Shown piece by piece: positions 20,338 through 46,828 of a stretch of DNA of 64,000 nt. Under the pieces are notes generated by a model. That model saw nothing but the letters and a program-made list of their open reading frames with translations, had not been told where the DNA came from and searched no databases. Made by a program: the position numbers and the translations under genes. Origin of the DNA: Caldilineaceae bacterium SB0661_bin_32 (GTDB lineage Bacteria > Chloroflexota > Anaerolineae > Caldilineales > Caldilineaceae); the NCBI GenBank assembly GCA_009841235.1, contig VXMH01000023.1, positions 1 through 64,000 of the forward strand, in the 5' to 3' direction. How positions within the stretch are numbered: the first letter of the stretch is position 1; each line of letters opens with the position of its first letter.

Positions 20338-20831
20338 ATCAGGCCGGAAACATCGGGTCTACGGGACCGGCACTGGACGAAGACAGGCGCTGCAAGACCT
20401 GGACATGCCGCCATAGCTGAAGGAAGGCCGGCAGTTCGACACTCGGGCTGGACACTGTCTGGCCAAGATACGAATGCCGTTCCTTTCGTCACGCATGGCA
20501 GCGTCTTCAGAATGGATTCAACTGATGGAAAGATTCGAGTCTACGTGTGGTCAGCAAGTTGGGAATTGGTCTTCTATAGGCGAGAAGCAAAACGCCGGGA
20601 ATAGCATGGCAGGCAAACGAAGCGGCTCCGCATTTGAAGTCAAAAAGGGAGTCACCGCTGGATTGCGAACTTGAATCCTTTCGCCGCTCGAGGCGCATGA
20701 TACTCTAACAGTTCTTGCTTGTCAATGAGCTAAAATCGGATCAGGGAATGTCAGGTTATATGTGGCATAATTGTTTCCACGAGAGCAAAATCCGAATACT
20801 CAGAAGCGACCGTTTTCCAAGGGAGGCCGGC

Positions 20832-21563
20832 ATGCGTTCAGAAACATTCCGTCATTATTGGGAAAAGGGCTGGGCGGTCGAGGAGGGGGTCTTCAGCCGG
20901 GAGGAGGCCGACCGGATCGCCGAAATTGCCCTGGAATTGAGCCAGCAGGAGCTGAGCAGCGACGGCGACGGCTATGTTGTGGACAAGTCGGACGAAGGTG
21001 AAATTGCGCCGCGCAAGATCGACACGCCTTTTCTGAAGAAGGGAGAATTTCAGAGGTTTGTTTTGGACCAGCGTCTGACCAAACTGCTGGCTGAACTGCT
21101 GGGGGCACCACCCTTGTTGTCGGGCGACCAGATCTTCATGAAGCCGCCTCATTTCGGCTCGGCCAAACCGTACCACCAGGACAATTTCTATTTCCAGTGC
21201 GACCCCGGCGACCATGTGATCACCGCCTGGATTGCGCTTGACGACGTCGGCAAGGAGAATGGCTGTCTGCGCTATATCGACGGTTCGCACAAGGGGCCGA
21301 TCCTGCCGCACGAAGCGGTGCCCGGCGAGCCGTACAACCTGGTGCCCCCTCCGGACCTGATCGATCTGCAAAAGGAGTCGCTGGCCCTCGTGAAGAAGGG
21401 AGGCGTCGTCTTCCACCACAGCCAGGCGCTGCATACGTCCCATCGAAACGGGTCGGACAGCTGGCGGCGCGGCTATGCCACGCACTGGGTTACAGCCGAC
21501 GTTACGTCCAGCAACGGCACTCTCGACAAGGCCTACTTCCGTCGCGAAGACTATCCAGCCTGA
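20832..21563 (+). CDS. Phytanoyl-CoA dioxygenase (PhyH) family protein
   Basis: A 243-residue Fe(II)/2-oxoglutarate-dependent oxygenase of the PhyH family. The metal triad fits H-x-D in KPYHQDNFYFQ near residue 117 and the distal His in HHSQALHTSHRNGS near 203, with the 2-oxoglutarate Arg supplied by RRGYATHW near 216. GCLRYIDGSHKGP near 150 is the usual PhyH strand. It would hydroxylate a small substrate, with decarboxylation of 2-oxoglutarate. I chose the ATG at 20832 because AGGGAGG lies 6 nt upstream; the frame is open 39 codons further. It is first on the plus strand ahead of the NMT1-type transporter, so it may act on the imported ligand. Confidence 0.88.
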   Translation: MRSETFRHYWEKGWAVEEGVFSREEADRIAEIALELSQQELSSDGDGYVVDKSDEGEIAPRKIDTPFLKKGEFQRFVLDQRLTKLLAELLGAPPLLSGDQIFMKPPHFGSAKPYHQDNFYFQCDPGDHVITAWIALDDVGKENGCLRYIDGSHKGPILPHEAVPGEPYNLVPPPDLIDLQKESLALVKKGGVVFHHSQALHTSHRNGSDSWRRGYATHWVTADVTSSNGTLDKAYFRREDYPA

Positions 21564-21666
21564 CCTGGAAAGCCAGGGGAGCGCCGGCTACTGCTACAGC
21601 CTGAGTTCAATCTGCCGCATGACGCATTAACTGCCCGAGTTGACCCACTCAAAGGAGACTGCATCA

Positions 21667-22842
21667 ATGAACCGCACGACTGTATCTCTACTTATATTTG
21701 CCACCCTGGCACTCATTCTGGGCGCTTGTGTGGCGCCGGCCCCCGCCGCCCAAGAGGAACCGATGGAGTCCGAGGCCGCCCCGATGGCGGAAGAAGAAGC
21801 CGGGGAGATGGCCGAGAGCGACAGCGAGGCCGAGTTCGAGCGCATTCTGGCCTGCGTTCAGGAAAATTTCCCGGCTGAGAGCTACTTCACCAACGAGCTG
21901 CTGCCGGCAGCCGGTGCGGCCTGGGAGCCGATGGAGTGCGACAGCGTCGACAGCATCAAGGTCGGGATGCCCTGGGTCCTGAACGACGAGGAGGCGCCCT
22001 GGTACAACGCGATCGAGCTGGGCTACTTTGCGGACGTCTGCCTGGAGGTTGAGCTGGTGGCAGGGGGGCCGGGCGTGGACCATCTGCAGACGCTGGCGGG
22101 CGGCGCGGTGGATATCGCCGTGGTGGCGGGAGGCAGCCGGGTGCCCTCGATCGTTTCGAGCCCCACGCCGGCAGACGTAGTTGCCGTCGGCACATTCCTC
22201 AAGCACAGTCCTTATATCTGGCTGGGCCTGGACCCGGACACGCCCCAGGACCAGCGCTCCGACAAGGTATTGACGCCGCAGGACTTCATCGGCACGAGAG
22301 TCGGTATCCAGGGCAATGACGACTACCTGTTCTCCTTCATGGCGAACAAGTATGGCATTCCCGCTGATGAGGTCGAGCTGATGGAGGCGGGATTCACGCC
22401 GGACCCGGTTCTAATGGGGGCGATGGACTACATCGGCGCCTGGATTGTGAACCAGCCGCGGCTCCTGGAGGAGAAGGGATTCATGAATTGGGTGGCTTTC
22501 CGGTTCAGCGATTGGGGCTGGGACGGATACGGCGACGTGACGGTCGTGCGTCGGGAAACATTTGAGGAGAATCCCGACCTGGTGCGCCGTTTCCTGGCCG
22601 CCCAGACGCAGGGTCTGAACTATCTGCTTGACAACCCCGATGAATCCGCCGAGATCGCAGTGGTGTACGGCGTTGACGCGCAGCTCACCAAGGAACAGGC
22701 CCTGCGCCGCTTCGAACTACAGGAAGCGCTTGTGCTCGGCAGCGATGATCTGCCGGTGTCCCACATGTCGGCTGAACGCTGGAATATGCAGGTGGCCTCG
22801 ATGATCCAGTACGACCAGCTTCAGTTGGAGGCCTGCGAATAG
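21667..22842 (+). CDS. NMT1/SsuA-like ABC solute-binding lipoprotein, copy 1
   Basis: The 391-residue product has a lipoprotein signal (SLLIFATLALILGAC, lipobox L-G-A-C) and an acidic linker. The mature protein has the THI5/NMT1-SsuA fold signature: VKVGMPW-like IKVGMPWVLNDEEAPWYNAI near residue 98, then ELGYFADVCLEVELVAGG, LQTLAGGAVDIAVV and LTPQDFIGTRVGIQGNDD. Relatives bind thiamine pyrimidines, riboflavin, nitrate or aliphatic sulfonates. The ATG at 21667 has AAGGAG 9 nt upstream; an in-frame ATG 27 nt earlier would disturb the signal. The next SBP is a close paralog. The ligand is unknown, but the downstream phosphorylase-like genes suggest a base or nucleoside analogue. Confidence 0.88.
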   Translation: MNRTTVSLLIFATLALILGACVAPAPAAQEEPMESEAAPMAEEEAGEMAESDSEAEFERILACVQENFPAESYFTNELLPAAGAAWEPMECDSVDSIKVGMPWVLNDEEAPWYNAIELGYFADVCLEVELVAGGPGVDHLQTLAGGAVDIAVVAGGSRVPSIVSSPTPADVVAVGTFLKHSPYIWLGLDPDTPQDQRSDKVLTPQDFIGTRVGIQGNDDYLFSFMANKYGIPADEVELMEAGFTPDPVLMGAMDYIGAWIVNQPRLLEEKGFMNWVAFRFSDWGWDGYGDVTVVRRETFEENPDLVRRFLAAQTQGLNYLLDNPDESAEIAVVYGVDAQLTKEQALRRFELQEALVLGSDDLPVSHMSAERWNMQVASMIQYDQLQLEACE

Positions 22843-23111: not shown

Positions 23112-24260
23112 ATGCGCAAAACCTCTCTCTTTTTCTTATTGTATATGCTGCCTTTACTGATTCTGAGCGCTTGCACTATTCCGGTCGTTATCCCCGAAAA
23201 CGAGGGAGGAGCCGGCGCGGTCGCGGGGGGTCCAGCCGACGGTGACGCCGAGTTCCAGCGGCTGCTGGCCTGTGTCGAGGAAAGCTTTCCGGCTGAAAAT
23301 TACATTACGAATGAACTCCTGCCCGACCTCAATGCCGCCTGGGAAACGATGGACTGCGAAAGCATGGAGCAGGTGAAGGTTGGGATGCCCTGGATTCTGA
23401 ATGACGGCGGCGCGCCCTGGTACAACGCGGTGGAACTGGGTTTTTTCAGCGACGTTTGTCTGGAGGCCGAACTGGTGCGCGGGGGGTCTGGTATCGGCCA
23501 TTTGCAGACTCTGATTGACGGCGGCGTTGACTTCGCCGTCAGTGCCGGGGGCAGTTTGATACCCGGCCTGCTCACGGGTCACGACGGGGCAGACATTGTT
23601 GCCGTCGGCGCCCTGATCAAACACAGCCCCTACATCTGGCTGGGGTTGGACCACGACACGCCGCGGGATCAGCGCTCCCAAAATGAACTGACGCCGCAGG
23701 ACTTCATCGGCAAGACGATCGGACTGCACGAGGGCGAAGGCCACTTCTTTGAACTCATCTCGGCAAAGCACGGAATCTCGCCAGACCAGGTTGAGCTTGT
23801 CGTGACCGGCTATTCGCCGGAGCCTGTTATTGAAGGCGAGATGGACTACACTGGGGCCTGGCTGATAAATGAACCCCGACTATTGGAAGCGCAGGGATAC
23901 AAGAACTGGGTGGCGTTCCGGTTCAGCGAATGGGGCTGGGACGACTATTCGGAAGTCCTGGTCGTGCGGCGGTCGACCCTGGAAGAAAATCCCGACCTGG
24001 TGCGGCGCTATCTTGCGGCTGTCTTTCAGGGGCTCAAGCAGGTTCTGGAGAATCCTGAGCGCTCCGCCGAGATCGCGGTCAGGTATGCGGTAGATGTGGA
24101 GTTGACCGAGGATCAGGCTCTACGCCGATACCAGCTACAGGAGGCTCTTGTTGTCGGGGCTGACGAGCTGCCCCTTGGCCACATGTCGGCCGGGCGTTGG
24201 AACAGGCAGGTGGCCTCGTTGATCCAGTATGACCAGATGGAACTGCCAATGTGCCAGTAG
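23112..24260 (+). CDS. NMT1/SsuA-like ABC solute-binding lipoprotein, copy 2
   Basis: The 382-residue paralog of the preceding SBP keeps its landmarks in the same order: a lipobox (LILSAC), VKVGMPWILNDGGAPWYNAV, LQTLIDGGVDFAVS, IKHSPYIWLGLDHDTPRDQR and EENPDLVRRYLAAVFQGL. Most mature positions match copy 1, while the binding-cleft stretch after LTPQDFIG differs (KTIGLHEGEGHFFEL against TRVGIQGNDDYLFSF). Both carry conserved Cys (LACVxE and xDCES/ECDS). It is followed after 25 nt by the ATPase gene. Tandem SBPs sharing one permease and ATPase would widen ligand range. Identity was judged by eye. Confidence 0.88.
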   Translation: MRKTSLFFLLYMLPLLILSACTIPVVIPENEGGAGAVAGGPADGDAEFQRLLACVEESFPAENYITNELLPDLNAAWETMDCESMEQVKVGMPWILNDGGAPWYNAVELGFFSDVCLEAELVRGGSGIGHLQTLIDGGVDFAVSAGGSLIPGLLTGHDGADIVAVGALIKHSPYIWLGLDHDTPRDQRSQNELTPQDFIGKTIGLHEGEGHFFELISAKHGISPDQVELVVTGYSPEPVIEGEMDYTGAWLINEPRLLEAQGYKNWVAFRFSEWGWDDYSEVLVVRRSTLEENPDLVRRYLAAVFQGLKQVLENPERSAEIAVRYAVDVELTEDQALRRYQLQEALVVGADELPLGHMSAGRWNRQVASLIQYDQMELPMCQ

Positions 24261-24285: not shown

Positions 24286-25038
24286 TTGACTATCGAGTTT
24301 TCGCGAGTCAACAAGAGCTTTGGCGACATTGAGGCTTTACGCGAGGTCAGCCTTACCGTTCAGGACGGTGAGTTTGTCTCCCTGATTGGCCCGTCGGGCT
24401 GCGGCAAGACGACGATGCTGCGGATCGCGGCCGGACTGGAGGAACCAAACGGAGGCGAGGTGCGGGTCAACGGCGACACGCCCAGGAATGCCTGCCGCCA
24501 GCACCAGATAGGGGTTGCCTTTCAACGCCCGGCTCTGCTGGCATCCCGTTCCGCGTTGAGCAATGTGCGCATGACATTGGAGATTACAGGGCGGAACGGC
24601 GCACTGTCACCGGATGATCTGCTGACCGATTTTGGCCTGGGCGAGTTTCACCATCACTATCCGCACCAGTTGTCGGGGGGGATGAAGCAGCGGGTCAACA
24701 TTGCCGCCGCGCTTGTCCACGATCCGGCCATATTGCTGCTGGATGAACCGTTCGGCGCGCTGGACGAACTGACGCGCGAATCGATGGGCGAGTGGCTGGG
24801 CGGCGTACTGAACCGTTCAGCCAAGACCGTGATCTTTGTCACGCACAGCGTGGAGGAAGCGACTATTCTTTCGGACAGGGTAGTCGTTCTGTCGGCCCGG
24901 CCCGGACGCATTGCAGAAGTCATCGAAATCGGGTTGCCGCGACCGCGGTCCAGGGCTTTCCGCACTGACGAGAATTTCCTGCGCGAGGTGGCACGGGTAC
25001 GTTCTTCGCTTTACCGTGCCGTCGAATTAAGCAACTGA
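24286..25038 (+). CDS. ABC transporter ATP-binding protein, SsuB/TauB type
   Basis: The 250-residue nucleotide-binding subunit has all the motifs: Walker A GPSGCGKTT near residue 36, Q-loop in IGVAFQRPAL, signature LSGGMKQR near 127, Walker B ILLLDEPFGALDE near 147 and the switch His in FVTHSVEEA near 185. It matches the SsuB/TauB/ThiY-partner class. The start is TTG at 24286 with AGGA upstream; no ATG fits. It should power the permease encoded at 25350 with either of the two preceding binding proteins. A 311-nt gap with repeats separates it from the permease. Confidence 0.92.
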   Translation: MTIEFSRVNKSFGDIEALREVSLTVQDGEFVSLIGPSGCGKTTMLRIAAGLEEPNGGEVRVNGDTPRNACRQHQIGVAFQRPALLASRSALSNVRMTLEITGRNGALSPDDLLTDFGLGEFHHHYPHQLSGGMKQRVNIAAALVHDPAILLLDEPFGALDELTRESMGEWLGGVLNRSAKTVIFVTHSVEEATILSDRVVVLSARPGRIAEVIEIGLPRPRSRAFRTDENFLREVARVRSSLYRAVELSN

Positions 25039-25074
25039 CGCACCTGTGAGGAAGTCCTGAAAGGTACTTTGATT

Positions 25075-25109
25075 GGTTCCGTTGACATTTTGAGGAGGTC
25101 GTCCAAATG
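25075..25109 (+). repeat. Imperfect direct repeat, copy 1
   Basis: The element begins GGTTCCGTTGACATTTTGAG and continues with GAGGTCGTCC. About 29 of 34 positions match the copy at 28112-28146. Both copies follow the stop codon of a plus-strand gene and precede another gene. Confidence 0.6.
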
Positions 25110-25130
25110 GAAATAAATCTAGCCGCGAAG

Positions 25131-25215
25131 TCATGCGAAGGGCCACGGTGAAAACCCTTTTTGTCCACGAAGGGCCACAAAGGGCCGCGAAGAACACCAA
25201 AGGCCACGGGGAAGT
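25131..25215. repeat. Degenerate CCACGAAG-type repeat tract
   Basis: Units resembling GGCCACGAAG or GGCCACAAAG recur several times (GAAGGGCCACGG, CCACGAAGGGCCACAAAG, GGCCGCGAAGAAC, AGGCCACGGGG). Similar CACGAAG tracts are scattered in many environmental genomes. No function is visible. Confidence 0.5.
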
Positions 25216-25349
25216 CCCTTGCGTGAATGCGCGGGTCAGTCGCACTTTGCTCCCGCAAATCGCTGTTCAGCCAAACGTCAACGAGCCCTAGTATAAGAAT
25301 CGATCCCAGCATAGGTTACTGTTGGCGCTAATAAGAGCCGGTAAAACTC

Positions 25350-26099
25350 ATGAGCGATCGTCTTGCCTACCTCATAATGATTGTCTCAGTACCCATCCTG
25401 TGGGTCCTGGCGATACAGATCACGGGCTTTCCGTCCTTCCTGCTACCGCCGCCAGATATGGTGGCGGACGTGTTGTGGACCGAACGGGAGCTGCTCGCTT
25501 CTCACACGTGGACGACGATCGTCGAGGCGTTGACCGGCTACGCGGTGGCCAATGCGATCGCGATTGCCCTGTCCATCTCGTTCCTCTATCTGCCATGGAT
25601 GGAGTCCCTGGCCCTACCGTGGACTGTCATCATCAAGAACGTCCCCTTTGTGACGATTGCCAGCATCTTGATCATCATTCTGGGTGATACGCCGCTGCCG
25701 AAGATAATAATCGTGGTTCTGATTACGTTTTTCCCGATTCTGGCGAACGTGACAAAAGGGCTGAAATCGGCCGACCCGGTGCTCCTGGACAGGATGCAGA
25801 CTTTGGACTCCAGCCAGTGGGAGGTATTCACGAAGGTGCGCTGGCCGAGCGCGCTCCCCTACTATATTGCCGCTCATGAGATCGCATTCACCGGCAGCAT
25901 CATAGGCGCCGTCGTAGCCGAATGGCTGTTTGCCCGCAAGGGACTCGGCTATCTGATCGTTCAGTCGATGTCGCAGTACCGGGCGGATCGGGTGTGGGCC
26001 GTTACGATGGTGGCCAGTGCGCTCGCGGTCGGCGCCTATCTGCTGGTCAAGATGATCGAGAAGTATCTGTTCCGCTGGCAGGTCGAGGACCTGAGCTGA
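25350..26099 (+). CDS. ABC transporter permease, SsuC/TauC type
   Basis: The 249-residue inner-membrane permease has about six hydrophobic segments and the binding-protein-dependent transport core, with the EAA-loop region DSSQWEVFTKVRWPSALPYYIA near residue 150 and the late AEWLFARKGLGYLI phrase near 190, both characteristic of SsuC/TauC/ThiX-type proteins. It partners the ATPase at 24286 and the two NMT1-type SBPs. The ATG is 311 nt after the ATPase stop, but gene order and family leave little doubt that it is the cognate permease. The substrate is not determinable from this subunit. Confidence 0.9.
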   Translation: MSDRLAYLIMIVSVPILWVLAIQITGFPSFLLPPPDMVADVLWTERELLASHTWTTIVEALTGYAVANAIAIALSISFLYLPWMESLALPWTVIIKNVPFVTIASILIIILGDTPLPKIIIVVLITFFPILANVTKGLKSADPVLLDRMQTLDSSQWEVFTKVRWPSALPYYIAAHEIAFTGSIIGAVVAEWLFARKGLGYLIVQSMSQYRADRVWAVTMVASALAVGAYLLVKMIEKYLFRWQVEDLS

Positions 26100-26136
26100 C
26101 TGCCGGCAGCTCTTTTTCCGCACACTGGAAAGCAAC

Positions 26137-27123
26137 ATGTACCCGACAATAGATCCTGCCGTAAAGTACGACGGGCCTGGCGCCGATTTCGCCTCGTTCA
26201 CCGGAAGTCCCCTCTGGGGATTCGGGATCGACGGCGTGCTCGAACGGGCTGTAGAACAGGGATGGACCGTTTCGAGCAGGGAACGGCTGAACACGCCTTA
26301 CGGGCTTTCCCCGCTGGTCGTCCACCTGGTCGCGCCAAACGGGCGCGACGTGATCTGGATTCCCTCCTACGGCGAGGTCCTGGGAGAGGATTCGCTCTAC
26401 CATCTCAATTTCGAAAAATGTTTCTGGGTGATCTGGCAGGCAGGGGTGAAGGTGATGATGGTGGGCGGCACGTCCGGGATTGCCGACTGGCGCCAGGGCG
26501 ACATCGCCGTCCGTCCCGGCGACGTCGTGCTGCCGTGGAGTTTCTACACGCGGCCGGTGCATCGCGGACTGCCAGGCACGCAGTTTGAGAGCATGTGGTC
26601 CAAGTGCCGCTTCCTGCTGGGCGATCCCTTTTGCCCTGAGCTGCAGACGCTAATGGCGTCGAAACTGGCGCCCTATGCTCGAAGCGGCCAGATCAGAAAG
26701 GTGCGAACGCCCGACGACACCCGCGTCGCGATGATCGTGCCGGAATCGATAACTTTCGAGACCGATTTCGACATTCTGCACTGGATGGCCGTCACCAAGA
26801 GCGCTTCCGAATTCCAGCCGGACCGGCCACCCATCGTTACCCTGCACGGCGACTGCCTCAACCCGCTTCTCTCCCGTTACCTTGGCATCCATGTTCTCTA
26901 CTACCACATGGTAAGCAACTACGCTCACGGGTTGGAGCCGGAGCACGACATTCACAGTACCATCAACCACCTGTACACCGAGGTATTTCCTGAAATCGCA
27001 CTGTCCCTGGAACTGGAGCTGCTGGCTTCGATGCCGGTTCCGGACGGCAGCGGCTGCCAATGCACAACCAGCCTGGGCGTTGCGCCGCCGGTTTTCAGTC
27101 AATCCCTTACCCAACCGGTATGA
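26137..27123 (+). CDS. Nucleoside/MTA phosphorylase-like protein, divergent copy
   Basis: This 328-residue protein resembles the PNP/MTAP fold but is divergent. Supporting phrases are QAGVKVMMVGGTSGI near residue 102, DIAVRPGDVVLPWSFYTR near 124, and LGDPFCPELQTLM near 165, which matches the DPFCP element of MTAP and of the next gene. The second half has SITFETDFDILHWM near 208 in place of the usual G-x-R-F-E-T segment and LHGDCLNPLLSRYLGIHVLYYHMVSNYAHG near 240. Key residues may therefore differ, and it may bind without phosphorolysis or use another ligand. It sits 37 nt after the permease. Confidence 0.6.
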   Translation: MYPTIDPAVKYDGPGADFASFTGSPLWGFGIDGVLERAVEQGWTVSSRERLNTPYGLSPLVVHLVAPNGRDVIWIPSYGEVLGEDSLYHLNFEKCFWVIWQAGVKVMMVGGTSGIADWRQGDIAVRPGDVVLPWSFYTRPVHRGLPGTQFESMWSKCRFLLGDPFCPELQTLMASKLAPYARSGQIRKVRTPDDTRVAMIVPESITFETDFDILHWMAVTKSASEFQPDRPPIVTLHGDCLNPLLSRYLGIHVLYYHMVSNYAHGLEPEHDIHSTINHLYTEVFPEIALSLELELLASMPVPDGSGCQCTTSLGVAPPVFSQSLTQPV

Positions 27124-27212
27124 CGTCCTTGGCTCCGTCACAGTTAAGATGAGCCCGGTAAAAAAGAGCCGCGTTCGCAAAAAACAACCAGGAAAAGAAC
27201 AGGAAGGATACA

Positions 27213-28112
27213 GTGACGACGATTCCATCAGCCAGCTATGCTTTGATAGGCGGCTCCGGCACCTGGGGGGCTCGATTTCCCGAGGACCTGGAGATGCCCA
27301 ATGTTGAACTGACCGGCTACTTTGAGTCGTTCGACACGCCGTTTGGCCGGACTGCGCCGTTCAAGCTGCTGCGCATCGGCGGTCAGAACATCTTGCGCAC
27401 AGCCATGCACGGCATGTGGGACCACGCAGGGGGACAGGGTTCGAGGCCGCGAACGCCGTGGCTGGCGGCGAAACAGGTGGGCTGGGTGCTGGAACAGGCC
27501 GGGGTCCAGTGGGCCATGGTCGAGGCATCGGTGGGCGGCATTCAGAGACCGGACAGGCCGGGCGAGCCGCTGCCGCCCTGGAGCATCACGATCAACACTG
27601 ACTACATGATGTTTTTCCGTCCTGAAGACGACCAGCCCTTCTTCGGCGGGCGCAAGCGGTCGGCGCGGTTCAAGGACCCTTTCTGTCCTATCATGAGTGA
27701 ACACCTCTACCAGGCTGCGAAGGAGGAGCCGAAGTTTGCAGGCGTTTACAAGGACAGCGTCTACGTCTGTACGGCCTGGGGGCGCTTTGAAACTGCCAAG
27801 GAGATCCAGGTCTACGCTGAGATGGGGGCGCACGTTGTGGGTCATACGCTGGCGCATGAACTGCCGGTCTTCCGCAAGGCGGGCGTACGCCTTGCCTCGG
27901 TGGGGATCATCTCCAACCATGCTGAGGGTAGAGACGAGTGGGTTGGTGACAATGCGGATGCGATGGCCGATTTCTACTTCAGCTGTCCTCACTATTTGGG
28001 GCCGGTTATGGCCAACGCCATGCAGGCGCTGATCGAGAGCGGCGTGACGCCGCCCGAGGATCCGGACATATACCTCTACGGACTGGGACAGTTCCCGGTT
28101 GAAGGCGCTTAG
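27213..28112 (+). CDS. MTA/purine nucleoside phosphorylase-family protein
   Basis: The 299-residue product follows the MTAP/PNP pattern: ALIGGSGTWG at residues 8-17, the early R-T-A-x-HGMWDH where MTAP has RHGR-x-H-x-x-P, VEASVGGI near 107, KDPFCPIMSEHLYQAA near 152, and WGRFETAKEIQVYAEMGAHVVGHT near 190. Such enzymes split a nucleoside with phosphate to base and sugar 1-phosphate. The start is GTG at 27213, with AAGGA 5 nt upstream. Together with the preceding paralog and the NMT1-type importer it suggests uptake and cleavage of a nucleoside-like compound. An altered His-phosphate region leaves the exact chemistry open. Confidence 0.72.
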   Translation: MTTIPSASYALIGGSGTWGARFPEDLEMPNVELTGYFESFDTPFGRTAPFKLLRIGGQNILRTAMHGMWDHAGGQGSRPRTPWLAAKQVGWVLEQAGVQWAMVEASVGGIQRPDRPGEPLPPWSITINTDYMMFFRPEDDQPFFGGRKRSARFKDPFCPIMSEHLYQAAKEEPKFAGVYKDSVYVCTAWGRFETAKEIQVYAEMGAHVVGHTLAHELPVFRKAGVRLASVGIISNHAEGRDEWVGDNADAMADFYFSCPHYLGPVMANAMQALIESGVTPPEDPDIYLYGLGQFPVEGA

Positions 28113-28146
28113 GTTCCGTTGACGTTTTGGGGAGGTCGTTCAGAAT
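28112..28146 (+). repeat. Imperfect direct repeat, copy 2
   Basis: The element begins GGTTCCGTTGACGTTTTGGG and continues with GAGGTCGTTC. It starts within the final bases of the preceding stop codon and is about 85 percent identical to 25075-25109 over 34 nt. Confidence 0.6.
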
Positions 28147-28235: not shown

Positions 28236-29594
28236 ATGAACTATCAGCCGAATATTCTCCTGTTTGTCACCGACGATCATGGGCAGTGGGCGAGCGGGGC
28301 TTACGGCAACCAGGAGGTGATCACACCGAACCTGGACCGGCTGGCGGCTTCGGGTGTCGTGATGGAGAATGCCTTTACGCCGACACCGGTCTGTTCGCCG
28401 GCGCGCGCATCGCTGCTGACAGGACTGACGCCCTCGCAGCACGGTATCCACGATTACATTGCTATGGCGTTTGACCGGGGGCCGCGGCTGGCAGGGGAAA
28501 GGACTCTGCCGCAGCTGCTGCAGGAGGCTGGTTACCGGACGGGGCTTGCAGGCAAGTGGCATGCCGGCAATGAGGACGCGCCCGCGCCCGGTTTCAGCTC
28601 CTGGTTCAGTGTGGGAAGCGCCTACCCACTTCTCCACGAAGGGACGCGTGATTTCTGCAACAAGGGCCGGATGGAGACATTCAGCGGCTATACCGACGAC
28701 ATTATCGCCGACGAGGCTGTCAAGTTTGTAACGGCGGAAGATGAGCGCCCGTTCTTCCTGCTTGTCGGACTGACTGCAACACATGGCCCCTGGAGCGGGC
28801 ACCCGAAGAGGTTGACCGAACTGTATCGCGGCGCCACTTTTGTGGACATTCCGCAGAACGAATCCTATGCGTTTGGAGAACAGGCGCTGGAGTCTTTGCG
28901 CGTGGACCGCGGCCGCGAGCGCGAAGCGCAGGTCCAGTATTATGCCGCGGTCAGCCATGTAGACGAAATAGTCGGGCGACTATTGAAGGCAGTTGACGAA
29001 ACCGGCAAGCAGAACAACACGCTGGTGGTATACACGTCGGATCATGGGCTGAACTGCGGGCATCACGGCATATGGGGCAAGGGAAACGGGACGCGGCCGC
29101 TGAACATGGTGGAGGAGTCGATTCGCGTGCCCTTGATTCTGAGCCGGCCGGGCGTTTTGCCGGCAGGCGTGCGGCGCGAGGAACCGGTTGATCACCTGGA
29201 CCTGTTCCAGACGCTGGCGGAAGCGGGGAAGGCGAAGTTACCCTCCGGCGCCGACTACGCCGGCAGAAGCATGCGGCCTCTTTTGCTCGAGCCGGAAGAG
29301 GGCGGGTACTGGCGAGACGTTCAGTTTGGCGAGTACGGAACGGTGCGCATGGCGCGAACGCGCCGGTACAAGCTCGTTCGCAGGCACCCGAGCGGACCCC
29401 ACGAACTCTTCGACCTGGAGACCGATCCGCGCGAGAGCCGCAGCCTCTTCGACAGCGCCTCGCACCGGGCCGTTTCATCTGAGCTACTGCGTCTGATGGA
29501 AAGGCACTTTCGCCGTTACGCAAGGGCAGACAGGAATGGTACCCTGGGCGCGGCGTTACCCCAGCACAACATGACCGAAGCCTGGCGGGTCTAG
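28236..29594 (+). CDS. Sulfatase (formylglycine-dependent type I)
   Basis: The 452-residue enzyme has the sulfatase N-terminus NILLFVTDDHGQWASGAYGN, with the DD metal ligands near residue 13, and the C-x-P-x-R modification motif as CSPARAS with Cys53 for formylglycine formation. A second metal and substrate region is TSDHGLNCGHHGIWGKGNG near 268. The C-terminal strands contain YKLVRRHPSGPHELFDLETDPRE, a common sulfatase end. No signal peptide is seen, so it may act in the cytoplasm after transport. It requires a formylglycine-generating enzyme encoded elsewhere. Its TAG stop is embedded in the stop of the convergent MFS gene. Target sulfate ester is unknown. Confidence 0.9.
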   Translation: MNYQPNILLFVTDDHGQWASGAYGNQEVITPNLDRLAASGVVMENAFTPTPVCSPARASLLTGLTPSQHGIHDYIAMAFDRGPRLAGERTLPQLLQEAGYRTGLAGKWHAGNEDAPAPGFSSWFSVGSAYPLLHEGTRDFCNKGRMETFSGYTDDIIADEAVKFVTAEDERPFFLLVGLTATHGPWSGHPKRLTELYRGATFVDIPQNESYAFGEQALESLRVDRGREREAQVQYYAAVSHVDEIVGRLLKAVDETGKQNNTLVVYTSDHGLNCGHHGIWGKGNGTRPLNMVEESIRVPLILSRPGVLPAGVRREEPVDHLDLFQTLAEAGKAKLPSGADYAGRSMRPLLLEPEEGGYWRDVQFGEYGTVRMARTRRYKLVRRHPSGPHELFDLETDPRESRSLFDSASHRAVSSELLRLMERHFRRYARADRNGTLGAALPQHNMTEAWRV

Positions 29595-42585: not shown

Positions 42586-43599
42586 CTACGCGGTAATTCT
42601 TGGATCGATGACAAAGTAGAGAATATCGACGATCAGGAACACAAGGACGTAAAGTACCGCGGCGAGCAGGACAAAGCCCTGCACGGCGTTGTAGTCCTTG
42701 ACGACGATCGATTCGAGCGCATAGCGTCCTATTCCCGGCCAGGAGAAGATTCTCTCGAGCACAACACTGCCGCCCAGCAGGTTACCATAGACGAGTGCGA
42801 CGAATGTCAAGGGAGCGAGGAGCGCATTGCGCAGTGCGTCACGAAAATAGATCTGGCGATCGGGCACGCCGTTGGCGCGGGCTGCCTGGATATACTCCGA
42901 CCCAAGGACTTCCAGCATCGACGAGCGCATCAGGCGGGTGATGGGCGCGAGCGTAACCAGGGCCTGTGTTATGACAGGCAGGGCAAGGTGTTCTGCGCTC
43001 GAGGTAAATGCCTTCCAGTTGCCCGTGACCAGACTATCCACCAGGTAGAGGCCGGTGATTCGATCCGGCGGCGAAACGAGCAGACCGATGCGACCGCTTG
43101 GCGGCGGGAAGATGCGCAACAGGAAGAACAGGACGTAGATCAGCAGGAGCCCCAGCCAGAAGGAAGGCACGGAGACGCCCAGAAGGGTGATGCCGCGGCT
43201 GATGTTGTCGATCCAGCTGTTTCTATAGACCGCCGACAGGACCCCGAGTGGAACGCCGAGCGCGAGGGCAAGCAGCAGGGCAGCGGTCGTCATTTCGAAG
43301 GTGGCGGGAAACCTCCGAATCAGGTCCTGGGCGACGGATTCCGAAGTAAACCAGGAGTCACCCAGATCCCCGCGCAACACGTTTCCCAGCCAGATGAAGT
43401 ACTGTTCGTGCAAGGGTTTGTCAAGCCCCAGGCGTTTGGTGATCGCCTCGATCTCTTCCGGCGTTGTGTCGATCCCGACAAACAGGTAGACCGGATTGCC
43501 GGGAAGGACATGGGAGATGGTGAAGATGATGATAGAGACCCCTAAGAGAACAGGGATCAGTTGGAGCAGACGCTTGCCGACGTATTGCAGCAGTCGCAT
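42586..43599 (-). CDS. ABC transporter permease, DppB/OppB type (operon 3)
   Basis: The 337-residue permease begins MRLLQYVGKRLLQLIPVLLGV, contains GLDKPLHEQYFIWLGNVLRGDLG near residue 60 and the EAA-loop phrase QAARANGVPDRQIYF near 225, and ends DILYFVIDPRI. Its ATG overlaps the TAA stop of the NicX-like gene by one base (TAATG at 43599). Translation coupling to a catabolic enzyme is direct evidence that this importer feeds the NicX-like proteins. Confidence 0.93.
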   Translation of the reverse strand: MRLLQYVGKRLLQLIPVLLGVSIIIFTISHVLPGNPVYLFVGIDTTPEEIEAITKRLGLDKPLHEQYFIWLGNVLRGDLGDSWFTSESVAQDLIRRFPATFEMTTAALLLALALGVPLGVLSAVYRNSWIDNISRGITLLGVSVPSFWLGLLLIYVLFFLLRIFPPPSGRIGLLVSPPDRITGLYLVDSLVTGNWKAFTSSAEHLALPVITQALVTLAPITRLMRSSMLEVLGSEYIQAARANGVPDRQIYFRDALRNALLAPLTFVALVYGNLLGGSVVLERIFSWPGIGRYALESIVVKDYNAVQGFVLLAAVLYVLVFLIVDILYFVIDPRITA

Positions 43600-44603
43600 T
43601 ACTTGAGGTTCTCCGGAACTATCACACCGTTTTCCACGACAACCTGGCCGTCAATGTAGATTTCGTGGTCGAGGCAGCAGAAGTCCCAGTGCGACTCGAC
43701 GTCGTTATCGCCGCCGACCGGCCAGAAGATGTTGCGGCCAAAGGCGATGAGGAAGTTGGCGTAATAGGCCTCGGAGTCCATGCCGATGACATTCCAGTCG
43801 GCGCGGTGTTCGGTGCCCCAGCCTACGTGGGCGAGCTCGTAGGAGCGGGGATCGTTCCACTGGGCGAACCACTCTTCGACGAGTCGGGCCTCCGTGCCTC
43901 CTTCAAACTTTACGATGCGGCCTTCGCGAACGGTGAGCTTTACCGGTTCTGTGGAGTGCCGGCGGAACTTGAGGAAGACTGTTCCGGGGTCCACCACGAT
44001 TGTGCCGTCGCCCTGGCCGGGGGCGGCGAAGAAGGTTACCAGTCCCTGAGGCCAGTGATCCCACTTGCCCGGTTCATCTGCCAGGCTGTAGAGGGTGTAG
44101 GCCTCGCGGCCCTCCTTGTTGACTACAAAATCGGTACCGTTCCTGGATGTGATGCGCATCTCCTTTGCGGCCGACAGTACGGGAACGCCGGCGCGGCCGC
44201 GATTGCGTACGTCGGCGTTTGGGGAGAGTCTGCGCAGAACGTCGATCGGTTCGACCACCATCAGCGCGCGCGTTCCTGACTGACGCGCTTCGTCGTGGGC
44301 GCGCGAATAGAGCCACTGCACTTGTGACATGCCGATCACCAGGTCGGCGGCTTTCCAGGCATCGCGAATGTAGGCTGACGAGATTTCGGGCAGAGTAGAC
44401 GGGACGGTCATCTGGATGACTTCGGCGCCGATCTCCTGCCCGGCCGCCATGAAGGCTGCAGGGTACGTCGGGTTGAAGCGGGTGTCGGTGAAGAGCAGCA
44501 GCGTCTCATCGGAGGTGAGTTTGCACCCTTCCAGCACTTCGCGGAACAGTCCGACGATCTCTGTAGCAGCATGGTAGGATACGGCGAAATCCTGCATACG
44601 CAT
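43599..44603 (-). CDS. NicX/M29-like protein, copy A
   Basis: The 334-residue protein matches the 2,5-dihydroxypyridine 5,6-dioxygenase (NicX)/aminopeptidase T-like family. The N-terminal half has LLFTDTRFNPTYPAAFMAAG near residue 36 and an ALMVVEPIDVLRRLSP stretch near 115. The C-terminal half has AHVGWGTEHRADWN (His259, His266) and ESHWDFCCLDHEIYIDG (His305, Asp307), where NicX keeps its iron ligands (His, then H-x-D). NicX opens a dihydroxypyridine ring with O2, and M29 relatives are metal aminopeptidases. Ring chemistry is possible but not shown. It is the third of three tandem paralogs and overlaps the DppB gene by one base. Confidence 0.72.
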   Translation of the reverse strand: MRMQDFAVSYHAATEIVGLFREVLEGCKLTSDETLLLFTDTRFNPTYPAAFMAAGQEIGAEVIQMTVPSTLPEISSAYIRDAWKAADLVIGMSQVQWLYSRAHDEARQSGTRALMVVEPIDVLRRLSPNADVRNRGRAGVPVLSAAKEMRITSRNGTDFVVNKEGREAYTLYSLADEPGKWDHWPQGLVTFFAAPGQGDGTIVVDPGTVFLKFRRHSTEPVKLTVREGRIVKFEGGTEARLVEEWFAQWNDPRSYELAHVGWGTEHRADWNVIGMDSEAYYANFLIAFGRNIFWPVGGDNDVESHWDFCCLDHEIYIDGQVVVENGVIVPENLK

Positions 44604-44674: not shown

Positions 44675-45763
44675 CTACTTCAGTCCGTCGGCAACGATCT
44701 TGCCCGCTTTCACTATGAGCTCGTCATCGAGATAGAGGTCATGCCGCAGGAGGCAGCCGCCGGCATGCGAAGGCATCGGCCAGGCGATCGATGGGCGGTT
44801 CTGGCCATGGAGGCCATTGTAGGGGGCGAGCGTGGAGAAGATGTTCATGCCAAGGTGCAGCATGATACAGCCGTAATAGCTCTCCCACTCGGCGGTGTTC
44901 CAGCCGGGACCGCCCCAGGCGGCGCTCTGATGGGTGCCCCAGCCGATATGTGCGATTCGATAGAATTCGGGGCGTTTCAGTCCGGCCAGGTAGTCCTCGA
45001 AGCGGCGGGCGACCCAGCCACCTTCGATGCGGACGATTTTGCCGTTCTCGAAGTGGGTAACGACCTGTTCCGGGAGGAGCGCGCTGTAGGAGCCGAGCAG
45101 TTCGCCGAGCGAATCTTCGGCGTCCCAGACCACCTTGCCGTTGGCGGAATCTTCGACGGGCGCGGTGGCGACCAGGCCGAAGCCGAAGTTGTCCCAGCGG
45201 CCGGGTTCGTCGACGATACCGACCTGGCAGTGGCCGATACGCCCTTCGACGCTGAGCGTCAGATCGGTGCCGGCCTCGGAGGTGATGCGCAGGGATTTGG
45301 CCTCCTGCATGCGGACGGCGCCGGCGCGCGTGCGGTCGATCATGGGCTGGGTCGGGAACAGCTTGCGCAGGTGCGTTTCGGAGCCGCCGACGGAGCAGTC
45401 CCACCAGCGGGTGCCGCTCATGATGATCTCTTCGAAGACGGGCGTGTACATGCCGATGTCGGCTACGGCGCCTTTGGCCGTGGTCGGACGAACGACGACG
45501 TCGGCCGACTTGAGGATGTCGGCGACAAAGGAGCCGTCCTGCACGGGGTTGGCAAAGCTGGTCCCCTGGGTGCGCCCTGACATGATGACGCGAACCCAAT
45601 CGGCGCCAAGGATGTCGAGGGCATCGCCATAGGCGCGCATGGCGCGTTCATCGTAGACGTGTGAACTCAAGAGGGCGGCGCGTGTGCCGTCTCCAATCTT
45701 GCTCAGCGCCAACGCCTCAGCGAGCAGTTGGGCAAAGCTATTGGTTTTTTCTGAAGTCGTCAT
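44675..45763 (-). CDS. NicX/M29-like protein, copy B (altered metal motif)
   Basis: The 362-residue paralog is longer than copies A and C. It retains AHIGWGTHQSAAW (His272, His278), but its late motif reads PSHAGGCLLRHDLYLDD, so His333 is followed by Gly335 where A and C have Asp. The missing Asp may weaken or alter the metal site. N-terminal parts (RAALLSSHVYDERAMRAYGDALD) also differ from the other two. It lies 71 nt before copy A and 60 nt after copy C. Retention in the operon suggests a non-redundant role, such as a subunit of a mixed oligomer. Confidence 0.7.
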   Translation of the reverse strand: MTTSEKTNSFAQLLAEALALSKIGDGTRAALLSSHVYDERAMRAYGDALDILGADWVRVIMSGRTQGTSFANPVQDGSFVADILKSADVVVRPTTAKGAVADIGMYTPVFEEIIMSGTRWWDCSVGGSETHLRKLFPTQPMIDRTRAGAVRMQEAKSLRITSEAGTDLTLSVEGRIGHCQVGIVDEPGRWDNFGFGLVATAPVEDSANGKVVWDAEDSLGELLGSYSALLPEQVVTHFENGKIVRIEGGWVARRFEDYLAGLKRPEFYRIAHIGWGTHQSAAWGGPGWNTAEWESYYGCIMLHLGMNIFSTLAPYNGLHGQNRPSIAWPMPSHAGGCLLRHDLYLDDELIVKAGKIVADGLK

Positions 45764-45823: not shown

Positions 45824-46828
45824 CTACCGCAGGTACTCGGGTACGATCTCTTCGTCTTCATTGACGATCAGCTCGCCGTCCAGGTAAAGGTTTTTGTGGC
45901 GACAGCAGAGGTCGATGTGAGCCCTTGTGTAGTTCGTGCCGCCGAGACCGGAGTGTTCGTGAGCGGCGTTGAAGATGTTACGGCCCGGAGAGACCATGAC
46001 TGTGCCGTACAGGCTTTCGGAATCCATGCCGACGACGTTCCAGAGGGCACGGTGCTCGGTACCCCAACCGGCATGGGCGAAGCGGAAGGCATCCGGGTCG
46101 TCGAAGGAGCTGAGGTAGTCGCGCAGGAGCTGCGCGTCGAGGCCGCCTTCGATGCTGGTGATGAGGCCTTTCTCCAGAGTCATGCGGATCTCTGAGACGG
46201 TATGCCTGCGCTGCTGCAGGATCACGTCTCCGGCGCGCACGATGTAGGTGCCCTGGGCTGTGTCTTCGAGAGGACCTGTCGCCACGAGCCCGGCCGGCCA
46301 GTGGTCCCAGCGGCCGGGCTGGTCGGCGAGCCCCACCTGTGCGTGTCCCTTGCGCCCGTCTTTGCGGAGGGTGAAGTCGGAGCCGGCGGAGTCGGTGACG
46401 CGGATCTCACTGGCTTCAGCCATACGCTTGGCGCCGGCGTAAGTACGCCGGATTACGTCCTCGTTGGGGAACATTCGCTTCAGGTTTGCAACCGGTTCGT
46501 GCACCATGAGGGTACGGGTGCCGGAGGCGAGCGCTTCGTTGTGGGCGTCGGTATAGAGCCAGGGAATTGAGGTCATTGCGACGACCATGTCGGCGGATTT
46601 CCAGGCGTCAAGAACAAGCTGGGCCGAGATTTCGGCGTCGGAGGGGGCGGTGATTGTAAATACTTCCGCGCCCAGGGAAGTGGCCGCGGCCATCATTGCA
46701 CCGGGGTATTCCGGGAATGCAAACTGCGCGTCGGTGAAGGCAAGAACTACTTCGCCTTTCTTTACGTTACACAGGCGAAGATGCTCGGTAAACAGGCCAA
46801 CGAGATCGGTGCCCTTCATTCCAGTCAC
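45824..46828 (-). CDS. NicX/M29-like protein, copy C
   Basis: The 334-residue first gene of operon 3 shares the family landmarks VLAFTDAQFAFPEYPGAMMAAA near residue 29, TRTLMVHEPVANLKRMFP near 110, AHAGWGTEHRALWN (His252, His259) and AHIDLCCRHKNLYLDGELI (His304, Asp306). It therefore has the full H...H-x-D set. The start is GTG at 46828, with AAGGA 6 nt upstream; an in-frame ATG three codons later has a poor spacing. Being first in line it may define the operon's main chemistry. The leader upstream carries palindromes and tandem repeats (46843-46937). Confidence 0.72.
   Translation of the reverse strand: MTGMKGTDLVGLFTEHLRLCNVKKGEVVLAFTDAQFAFPEYPGAMMAAATSLGAEVFTITAPSDAEISAQLVLDAWKSADMVVAMTSIPWLYTDAHNEALASGTRTLMVHEPVANLKRMFPNEDVIRRTYAGAKRMAEASEIRVTDSAGSDFTLRKDGRKGHAQVGLADQPGRWDHWPAGLVATGPLEDTAQGTYIVRAGDVILQQRRHTVSEIRMTLEKGLITSIEGGLDAQLLRDYLSSFDDPDAFRFAHAGWGTEHRALWNVVGMDSESLYGTVMVSPGRNIFNAAHEHSGLGGTNYTRAHIDLCCRHKNLYLDGELIVNEDEEIVPEYLR

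Follow-up and report, generated by a model that had tools for sequence, protein, structure and literature searches.

A candidate nucleoside import-and-cleavage cassette with an NMT1-type importer and two PNP-fold genes in Caldilineaceae

What does a bacterium take up and split when the genes of an NMT1/THI5-type ATP-binding cassette (ABC) importer are followed by two genes resembling purine nucleoside phosphorylase (PNP) and 5'-methylthioadenosine (MTA) phosphorylase (MTAP)? This question is raised by contig VXMH01000023.1 of Caldilineaceae bacterium SB0661_bin_32 (Chloroflexota), of which positions 1 to 64,000 (hereinafter designated the window) were analysed. We lean towards a nucleoside import-and-cleavage module, an assignment drawn from sequence comparison: two lipoprotein substrate-binding proteins (SBP1 and SBP2) would bind a sugar-bearing flat heterocycle, in all likelihood a purine or 5'-modified nucleoside, the ATPase and permease would import this nucleoside-like ligand, and the second PNP-fold protein (PNP2), perhaps complexed with the first (PNP1), would cleave its N-glycosidic linkage, most probably by phosphorolysis, releasing the base and a sugar-1-phosphate that would enter central metabolism. 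The genes are presumably co-transcribed.

Layout and conservation of the cassette

An earlier note on this DNA had described a PhyH gene, two SBP genes, an ATPase, a permease and two MTAP/PNP-like genes followed by a sulfatase gene, and all eight are present in one row on the + strand. The interval 24286-28112 given in that note holds the genes from ATPase to PNP2; both SBP genes lie upstream of it.

20715-21563, +, PhyH-type Fe(II)/2-oxoglutarate dioxygenase (PF05721, 114 bits, 1.4e-32)
21640-22842, +, SBP1, NMT1/THI5-type lipoprotein (PF09084, 105 bits, 6.2e-30)
23112-24260, +, SBP2, NMT1/THI5-type lipoprotein, tandem paralogue of SBP1 (PF09084, 103 bits, 2.5e-29)
24286-25038, +, ABC ATPase (PF00005, 3.7e-30)
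25350-26099, +, ABC permease (PF00528, 3.5e-24)
26137-27123, +, PNP1, likely a highly diverged PNP/MTAP-fold protein (weak MTAP models, Foldseek, alignment)
27213-28112, +, PNP2, MTAP-like enzyme (PF01048, 38.5 bits, 1.1e-9)
28236-29594, +, sulfatase with CSPAR motif (PF00884, 186 bits, 1.4e-54)

A locus search returned 16 related loci holding a PNP1 gene, 15 of them from Caldilineaceae, and a survey of 61 genomes (60 relatives and the window's own) gave a PNP1 match in 18: the window's genome, 15 congeners with full-length matches, G003 (partial, 31%) and G035 (fragments). Gene cluster conservation, proposed in the earlier note as a check, is borne out within the genus, the order PhyH-SBP-ATPase-permease-PNP1-PNP2-sulfatase being intact in 15 of the 16 congeners examined, with G003 as the exception; two SBP genes are present in 14 of the 15 cassette-bearing congeners and a single one in G006. 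Because synteny extends past the row on both sides in most congener genomes, gene order within the genus cannot by itself delimit the unit. Isolate names read as those of a sponge-associated genus, and if the nucleoside reading is true, the cassette would offer these symbionts a route for host- or community-derived nucleosides.

The cassette genes are under purifying selection, with Nei-Gojobori ratios of nonsynonymous to synonymous divergence (dN/dS) of 0.02-0.20 for all eight genes between the window and 11 of the 15 congener loci. The ratios are 0.05-0.11 for PNP2 and 0.07-0.12 for PNP1, which is therefore not decaying. Synonymous divergence (dS) of PNP1 to loci L025 and L026 is 0.26-0.28, compared with 0.45-0.77 for the SBPs, ATPase, permease and PNP2, and to L029, L035, L038 and L039 it is 1.2-1.7, compared with 0.44-0.81 for SBP1, ATPase, permease and PNP2. 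PNP1 thus falls into two allele types whose distribution disagrees with that of the other genes in the row, a pattern that suggests recombination of PNP1 alone. One further PNP1 copy, split by a frameshift, stands alone without importer or PNP2 at L040 2254-3338 (G035) and was excluded from the cassette counts.

The core of the cassette recurs in two distant genomes, so that the tie drawn in the earlier note between an NMT1-type importer and PNP/MTAP-like enzymes extends beyond the genus. A PNP1-profile scan of the phylum pointed to G079 and G140. In the latter, a distant Chloroflexota genome, genes for an NMT1 SBP, ATPase, permease, PNPa and PNPb lie on one strand in the order seen in the window, their NMT1 and PF01048 identities being confirmed by family search; since PNPa and PNPb are 31% identical, they are old paralogues. 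The second cassette, in G096, reads single clade-II PNP (see below) - NMT1 SBP - ATPase - permease - amidohydrolase - sulfatase-like - MtnA-like. Its amidohydrolase scores 295 bits against the 5'-deoxyadenosine deaminase model and 225 bits against that of MTA/S-adenosylhomocysteine deaminase, both under the cut-offs, and also fits TRZ/ATZ models, likewise under cut-off; its MtnA-like isomerase reaches 259 of 271 bits in the methylthioribose-1-phosphate isomerase subfamily model. A second, canonical MtnA is encoded elsewhere in G096, so the cassette isomerase looks dedicated. This MtnA-like gene argues that a member of the clade makes a sugar-1-phosphate.

The PNP-fold pair and its clade

The two PNP-fold proteins differ in how readily they are recognized. 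PNP2 passes PF01048 (cut-off 25.1 bits); PNP1 has no Pfam match at E up to 0.1, PF01048 included, and only weak NCBIfam matches (MTAP, 9e-5). Against the MTAP model TIGR01694, PNP2 scores 67.3 and PNP1 21.9, both under the cut-off of 274.85. Foldseek listed 50 matches to the AlphaFold model of PNP1, of which 49 are named PNP, MTAP or S-methyl-5'-thioinosine phosphorylase, or uridine phosphorylase (best E 6.8e-9), while the title of the 50th names no molecule; this model and that of SBP1 are poor (mean predicted local distance difference test, pLDDT, of 57 and 59, respectively) and served for fold class only. Weak MTAP models, Foldseek and alignment with relatives together would place PNP1 in the PNP/MTAP fold group, a likeness to the fold only. 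Because a profile comparison of PNP1 with PNP2 (A1-A2) gave a probability of 22%, their kinship rests on the G140 pair (31%) and on the alignment. Canonical PNP, MTAP-type and MtnA genes are found elsewhere in the window's genome, so PNP1 and PNP2 are not its housekeeping set.

PNP2 resembles MTAP and S-methyl-5'-thioinosine phosphorylase (TIGR01694, 3ozb, 1v4n) in fold, layout and the P-loop Ser/Thr, His, Thr and Glu, and differs from MTAP in its score (67 of 275), a lost Arg, a longer N-terminal part and membership of a separate clade. The Arg and His of the canonical MTAP RHG motif, which we take to bind phosphate, are replaced by Met-His in PNP2 and Ser-Tyr in PNP1, where SYG stands for RHG and a Cys occupies a position held mostly by Thr or Ser in the others. 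PNP2 retains the P-loop Ser, the His, the Thr and two Glu; its base position is occupied by Asn, where the rows of the same alignment that we regard as adenine-type have Asp. From its sequence, PNP1 may be a degenerate partner. Of the two phosphorylases proposed in the earlier note, only one is thus likely, PNP1 being without most of the phosphate site. Close to their C termini, PNP1, both G140 proteins, the rhizobial enzymes and several canonical rows share a C-x-C motif that PNP2 has lost.

With PNP1 left out, the PNP2 relatives form a clade (hereinafter designated clade II) that stands apart from canonical MTAP at 100/100 support and comprises PNP2, G140_a/b, G079_C45/C10, G124_y, the G096 enzyme, a rhizobial set and the f37/f72 group. 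A scan of 400 Chloroflexota genomes with a profile built from part of clade II (A9), in which up to five candidates per genome were scored, gave 21 matches of at least 189 bits, spread over 19 genomes; the match ranking next had 162. In a comparison of 41 proteins, PNP2 and G140_b each have the other as their best match outside the genus (34-37% identity), and they group at 97/96 with PNP1 in the tree and at 98/95 without it, in a join that unites long branches (tree program warning). The best BLAST matches of PNP1 are G079_C37 and G140_a, with nearly equal scores. Duplicate or near-duplicate rows (L127-L130, L133, L141, L148-L153) and a fragment (own_L003) were omitted from the trees, as was the long-branched own_L001 from the PNP1-free tree. 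At the RHG Arg position, clade II has Met in PNP2 and G140_b, Ser in G140_a, G079_C45, G096 and the rhizobia, Tyr in two others, and Met, Leu or Pro in the f37/f72 rows. An Arg one residue upstream, found in G140_b, G079_C10, G124_y and f37/f72 and not in PNP1, PNP2, G140_a or the rhizobia, might compensate for the lost one.

The remaining clade-II genes occur in several contexts. G124 has two PNPs with Dpp-type permeases, an SBP and an amidohydrolase similar to that of G096, and G079_C45 adjoins genes for a class II aldolase, a DhnA-type aldolase and an alcohol dehydrogenase. On plasmids of Rhizobium, Mesorhizobium, Agrobacterium and Sagittula the order is LacI - SBP - ATPase - permeases - PNP, and the clade-II gene, annotated there as 5'-methylthioadenosine phosphorylase, follows an ABC-importer operon, as in the window, in six of the seven annotated rhizobial/Sagittula loci read. 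These units differ from the window's cassette in a PotD-type SBP (the Mesorhizobium SBP is PotD-like), two permeases (the second of which looks broken at one locus), a single enzyme and a LacI regulator; in Phyllobacterium the PNP has no adjoining importer. No NMT1-type importer was found beside the weak G003 PNP1-like match or the f37/f72 clade-II genes. In f72 (L160-L170), the clade-II gene adjoins a UbiE/MenG methyltransferase-like gene, as judged by eye, and a futalosine-type role is conceivable there.

Importer, candidate ligands and competing readings

Both SBPs exceed the PF09084 cut-off of 20.5 bits and fall far under that of the SsuA family TIGR01728 (39.5 and 29 bits; cut-off 163.5). 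The SBP1 model matches the folds of ThiY (3ix1, 4e-15), a thiamin-bound Clostridioides difficile SBP (4nmy, 1e-14) and Thi5 with pyridoxal phosphate (PLP; 5e-11), with SsuA (3ksx, 2.5e-9) and TauA ranking behind, and phmmer with SBP2 returned 4nmy at 1.1e-15 and 3ix1 at 5.2e-8. Judged by these models, the SBPs are closer to ThiY and Thi5 than to SsuA; the "SsuA/NMT1 type" of the earlier note accordingly keeps its NMT1 half and loses its SsuA half. A Trp, an Asn and a Tyr of ThiY, presumably its ligand contacts, face identical residues of SBP2 in the phmmer alignment, and all 15 SBPs aligned share W81, N84 and Y266. Identity to ThiY and 4nmy, the closest solved relatives, is 20-21% in the fold alignment. 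Annotation routinely labels NMT1/THI5-like SBPs as binders of thiamin or sulfonates; if the nucleoside reading is true, a recurrent operon with nucleoside-splitting enzymes would supply a ligand class that could be tested for many of them.

The base of the putative nucleoside is unsettled, with a purine favoured and a pyridine possible. A purine nucleoside is favoured, first, by the presence in G096 of deaminase-like and MtnA-like genes and, second, by an NMT1 precedent: according to the accessible part of one report, proteobacterial xanthine-riboswitch (NMT1 motif) operons carry NMT1/THI5-like genes with 2-oxoglutarate dioxygenases and purine deaminases, in one case two NMT1 genes with pcbC and tadA, and the motif is confined to Proteobacteria (PMC7373994). 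The likeness lies in NMT1/THI5-like genes, sometimes two, beside 2-oxoglutarate dioxygenases, in operons for purine transport and oxidation; the window set differs in having no riboswitch, in belonging to another phylum, and in its PNP pair, which is not among the operon genes as described in that part. The 5'-deoxyadenosine/MTA salvage route (MtnP-MtnA-class II aldolase; PMC6302742, as covered by the accessible part) is echoed in G096, where a clade-II PNP accompanies an MtnA-like gene, and in G079, where one accompanies a class II aldolase, whereas canonical MtnP-type and MtnA genes sit elsewhere in such genomes. The core idea is one of ordinary salvage; the enzyme pair and its link to an NMT1-type importer look undescribed. 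No description of the cassette was found in the open-access literature, judged mostly by title and the start of the abstract; its parts are of known kinds, and within the scope of these searches novelty lies in the combination, the Arg-less clade and the uneven pair.

Several observations weigh against import and phosphorolysis of a nucleoside. Only two importer cassettes were found outside the genus, and the window's cassette holds no deaminase or isomerase gene. No gathering-score Rfam match, the xanthine and thiamin pyrophosphate (TPP) riboswitches included, was obtained in the window, L074, L157, L032, L107 or L122. The phosphate-site Arg is replaced in PNP1 and in all 26 other clade-II rows tabulated, a change that could mean hydrolysis or other chemistry. 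The position of PNP1 in the tree is uncertain: it groups with G140_a, G079_C45, G096 and the rhizobial enzymes with 80/97 support, and its branch is very long (3.3). A pyridine base is possible because the closest plasmid relatives adjoin nicotinate-degradation genes. A bolder variant would make PNP1 and PNP2 an obligate hetero-oligomer in which a dead PNP1 completes or gates the Arg-less PNP2, acting on an N-riboside new to NMT1 transporters such as nicotinate riboside; we regard it as a long shot.

The main competing reading, that the importer takes nicotinate riboside, nicotinamide riboside or another pyridine glycoside, from which the PNPs free the pyridine, is conceivable if unlikely. The plasmid relatives in question (45-49% identical to the G096 enzyme and grouped at 100/100) lie in or near nicotinate-degradation clusters: in Mesorhizobium AR02, NicX matches a solved 2,5-dihydroxypyridine dioxygenase at 3.7e-97 and NicC a 6-hydroxynicotinate 3-monooxygenase at 1.5e-186, the remaining nic genes presumably having the roles that the nicotinate pathway assigns them. 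In at least nine of the 15 records H57-H71, counted among the 45 listed of 201 records, the PNP has a NicX match no more than 27 kb away (Mesorhizobium AR02, AR07 and NZP2037, Phyllobacterium, Pararhizobium A13, two Agrobacterium, Sagittula P11 and R. sullae). Should these clade-II enzymes, labelled MTA phosphorylase yet without the phosphate Arg, act in such clusters, their annotation would need to change. According to structure titles, the pyridine PLP is a ligand of Thi5, whose fold is near that of the SBPs, and E. coli XapA of the PNP family makes nicotinamide riboside, according to the accessible part of the report (PMC3923242). No NicX match was found in G096, G124 or G079, however, the rhizobial importer is of PotD rather than NMT1 type where tested, and nicC, nicD and nicF are absent from the typed genes near the cassette. 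The window does carry three tandem NicX-like genes on the - strand (43599-44603, 44675-45763 and 45824-46828), adjoining ABC transporter genes and devoid of Pfam matches, the first resembling 2,5-dihydroxypyridine dioxygenase at 1.4e-46; but the triplet occurs without the cassette in G003, and the cassette without a close copy of the triplet in G009, G010, G012, G013 and G015, and a pyridine link within the window was rejected for this want of co-occurrence. A pair that is no longer glycosidic and binds or senses the imported compound, or carries out some other reaction, would fit the missing phosphate-site Arg throughout clade II and the little that PNP1 retains of that site. We consider this distinctly unlikely, since PNP2 keeps its Ser, His, Thr, two Glu and Asn, and since the MtnA-like and deaminase-like genes beside the clade-II enzyme of G096 fit a sugar-1-phosphate output.

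Salvage of thiamin or its pyrimidine (HMP), in which the PNP-like genes would assist a ThiY-type importer, draws on ThiY and the thiamin-bound SBP as top fold and sequence matches and on the three conserved ThiY-aligned residues. We know of no place for N-glycosidic enzymes in HMP salvage, and no thi gene was found among the typed cassette genes of the window or in the G140 and G096 cassettes; with no TPP or other riboswitch either, a thiamin importer was dropped as very improbable. In the accessible parts of two reports, sponge Caldilineae are said to import thiamin by TbpA-ThiPQ (PMC6306507) and NMT1/THI5-like genes to be unrelated to thiamin in some cases (PMC7373994), both of which count against this reading. 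We give still less credence to the use of a sulfonate or of the sulfated nucleoside suggested in the earlier note, with the sulfatase as a member. The window and all 15 cassette-bearing congeners do have a sulfatase gene after PNP2, and the G096 cassette has a PF00884 gene. The window's genome (5.2 Mb), however, has 36 PF00884 matches, other DNA separates PNP2 from the sulfatase gene in 12 of the 15 congeners, the SsuA scores are low, and the G096 sulfatase-like protein has Thr in place of the Cys of the window's CSPAR; arylsulfatases are moreover described, in the accessible part of the report, as generally enriched in sponge Caldilineae (PMC6306507). On gene spacing and sulfatase abundance, this membership was abandoned.

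Flanking genes and intergenic intervals

With 112 PhyH matches in the window's genome beside the 36 sulfatases, a lone neighbouring gene of either kind is weak evidence, unlike two NMT1 SBPs beside two PNP-fold genes; NMT1 matches number six in that genome. The PhyH gene, absent from the G140 and G096 cassettes, adjoins the cassette in 15 of 15 congeners and is a possible, unproven member of the unit. The sulfatase is probably a neighbour outside it. The distance between PNP2 and the sulfatase gene is 37-123 bp in the window, G006, G010 and G012, and the interval measured between matches is 857-2195 bp in the other 12 congeners. All eight of these 12 wide gaps that were read contain a long open reading frame on the opposite strand, which in L026 (7595-8278, -), the only one whose domain was typed, encodes a Ricin_B-type lectin domain (PF00652) of beta-trefoil fold; this gene is not found in the window, and similar places are occupied in seven other congeners.

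Type I sulfatases carry the formylglycine motif C-x-P/A-x-R, which the window's sulfatase has as CSPAR. CS[PA]AR is present in seven of eight sulfatase relatives, the eighth having been misread by the search pattern.

The gap between the ATPase and permease genes is longer in the window than in most relatives. A 21-base sequence occurs twice, at 25081-25101 after the ATPase gene and at 28118-28138 after PNP2, with 0.02 such occurrences expected by chance.

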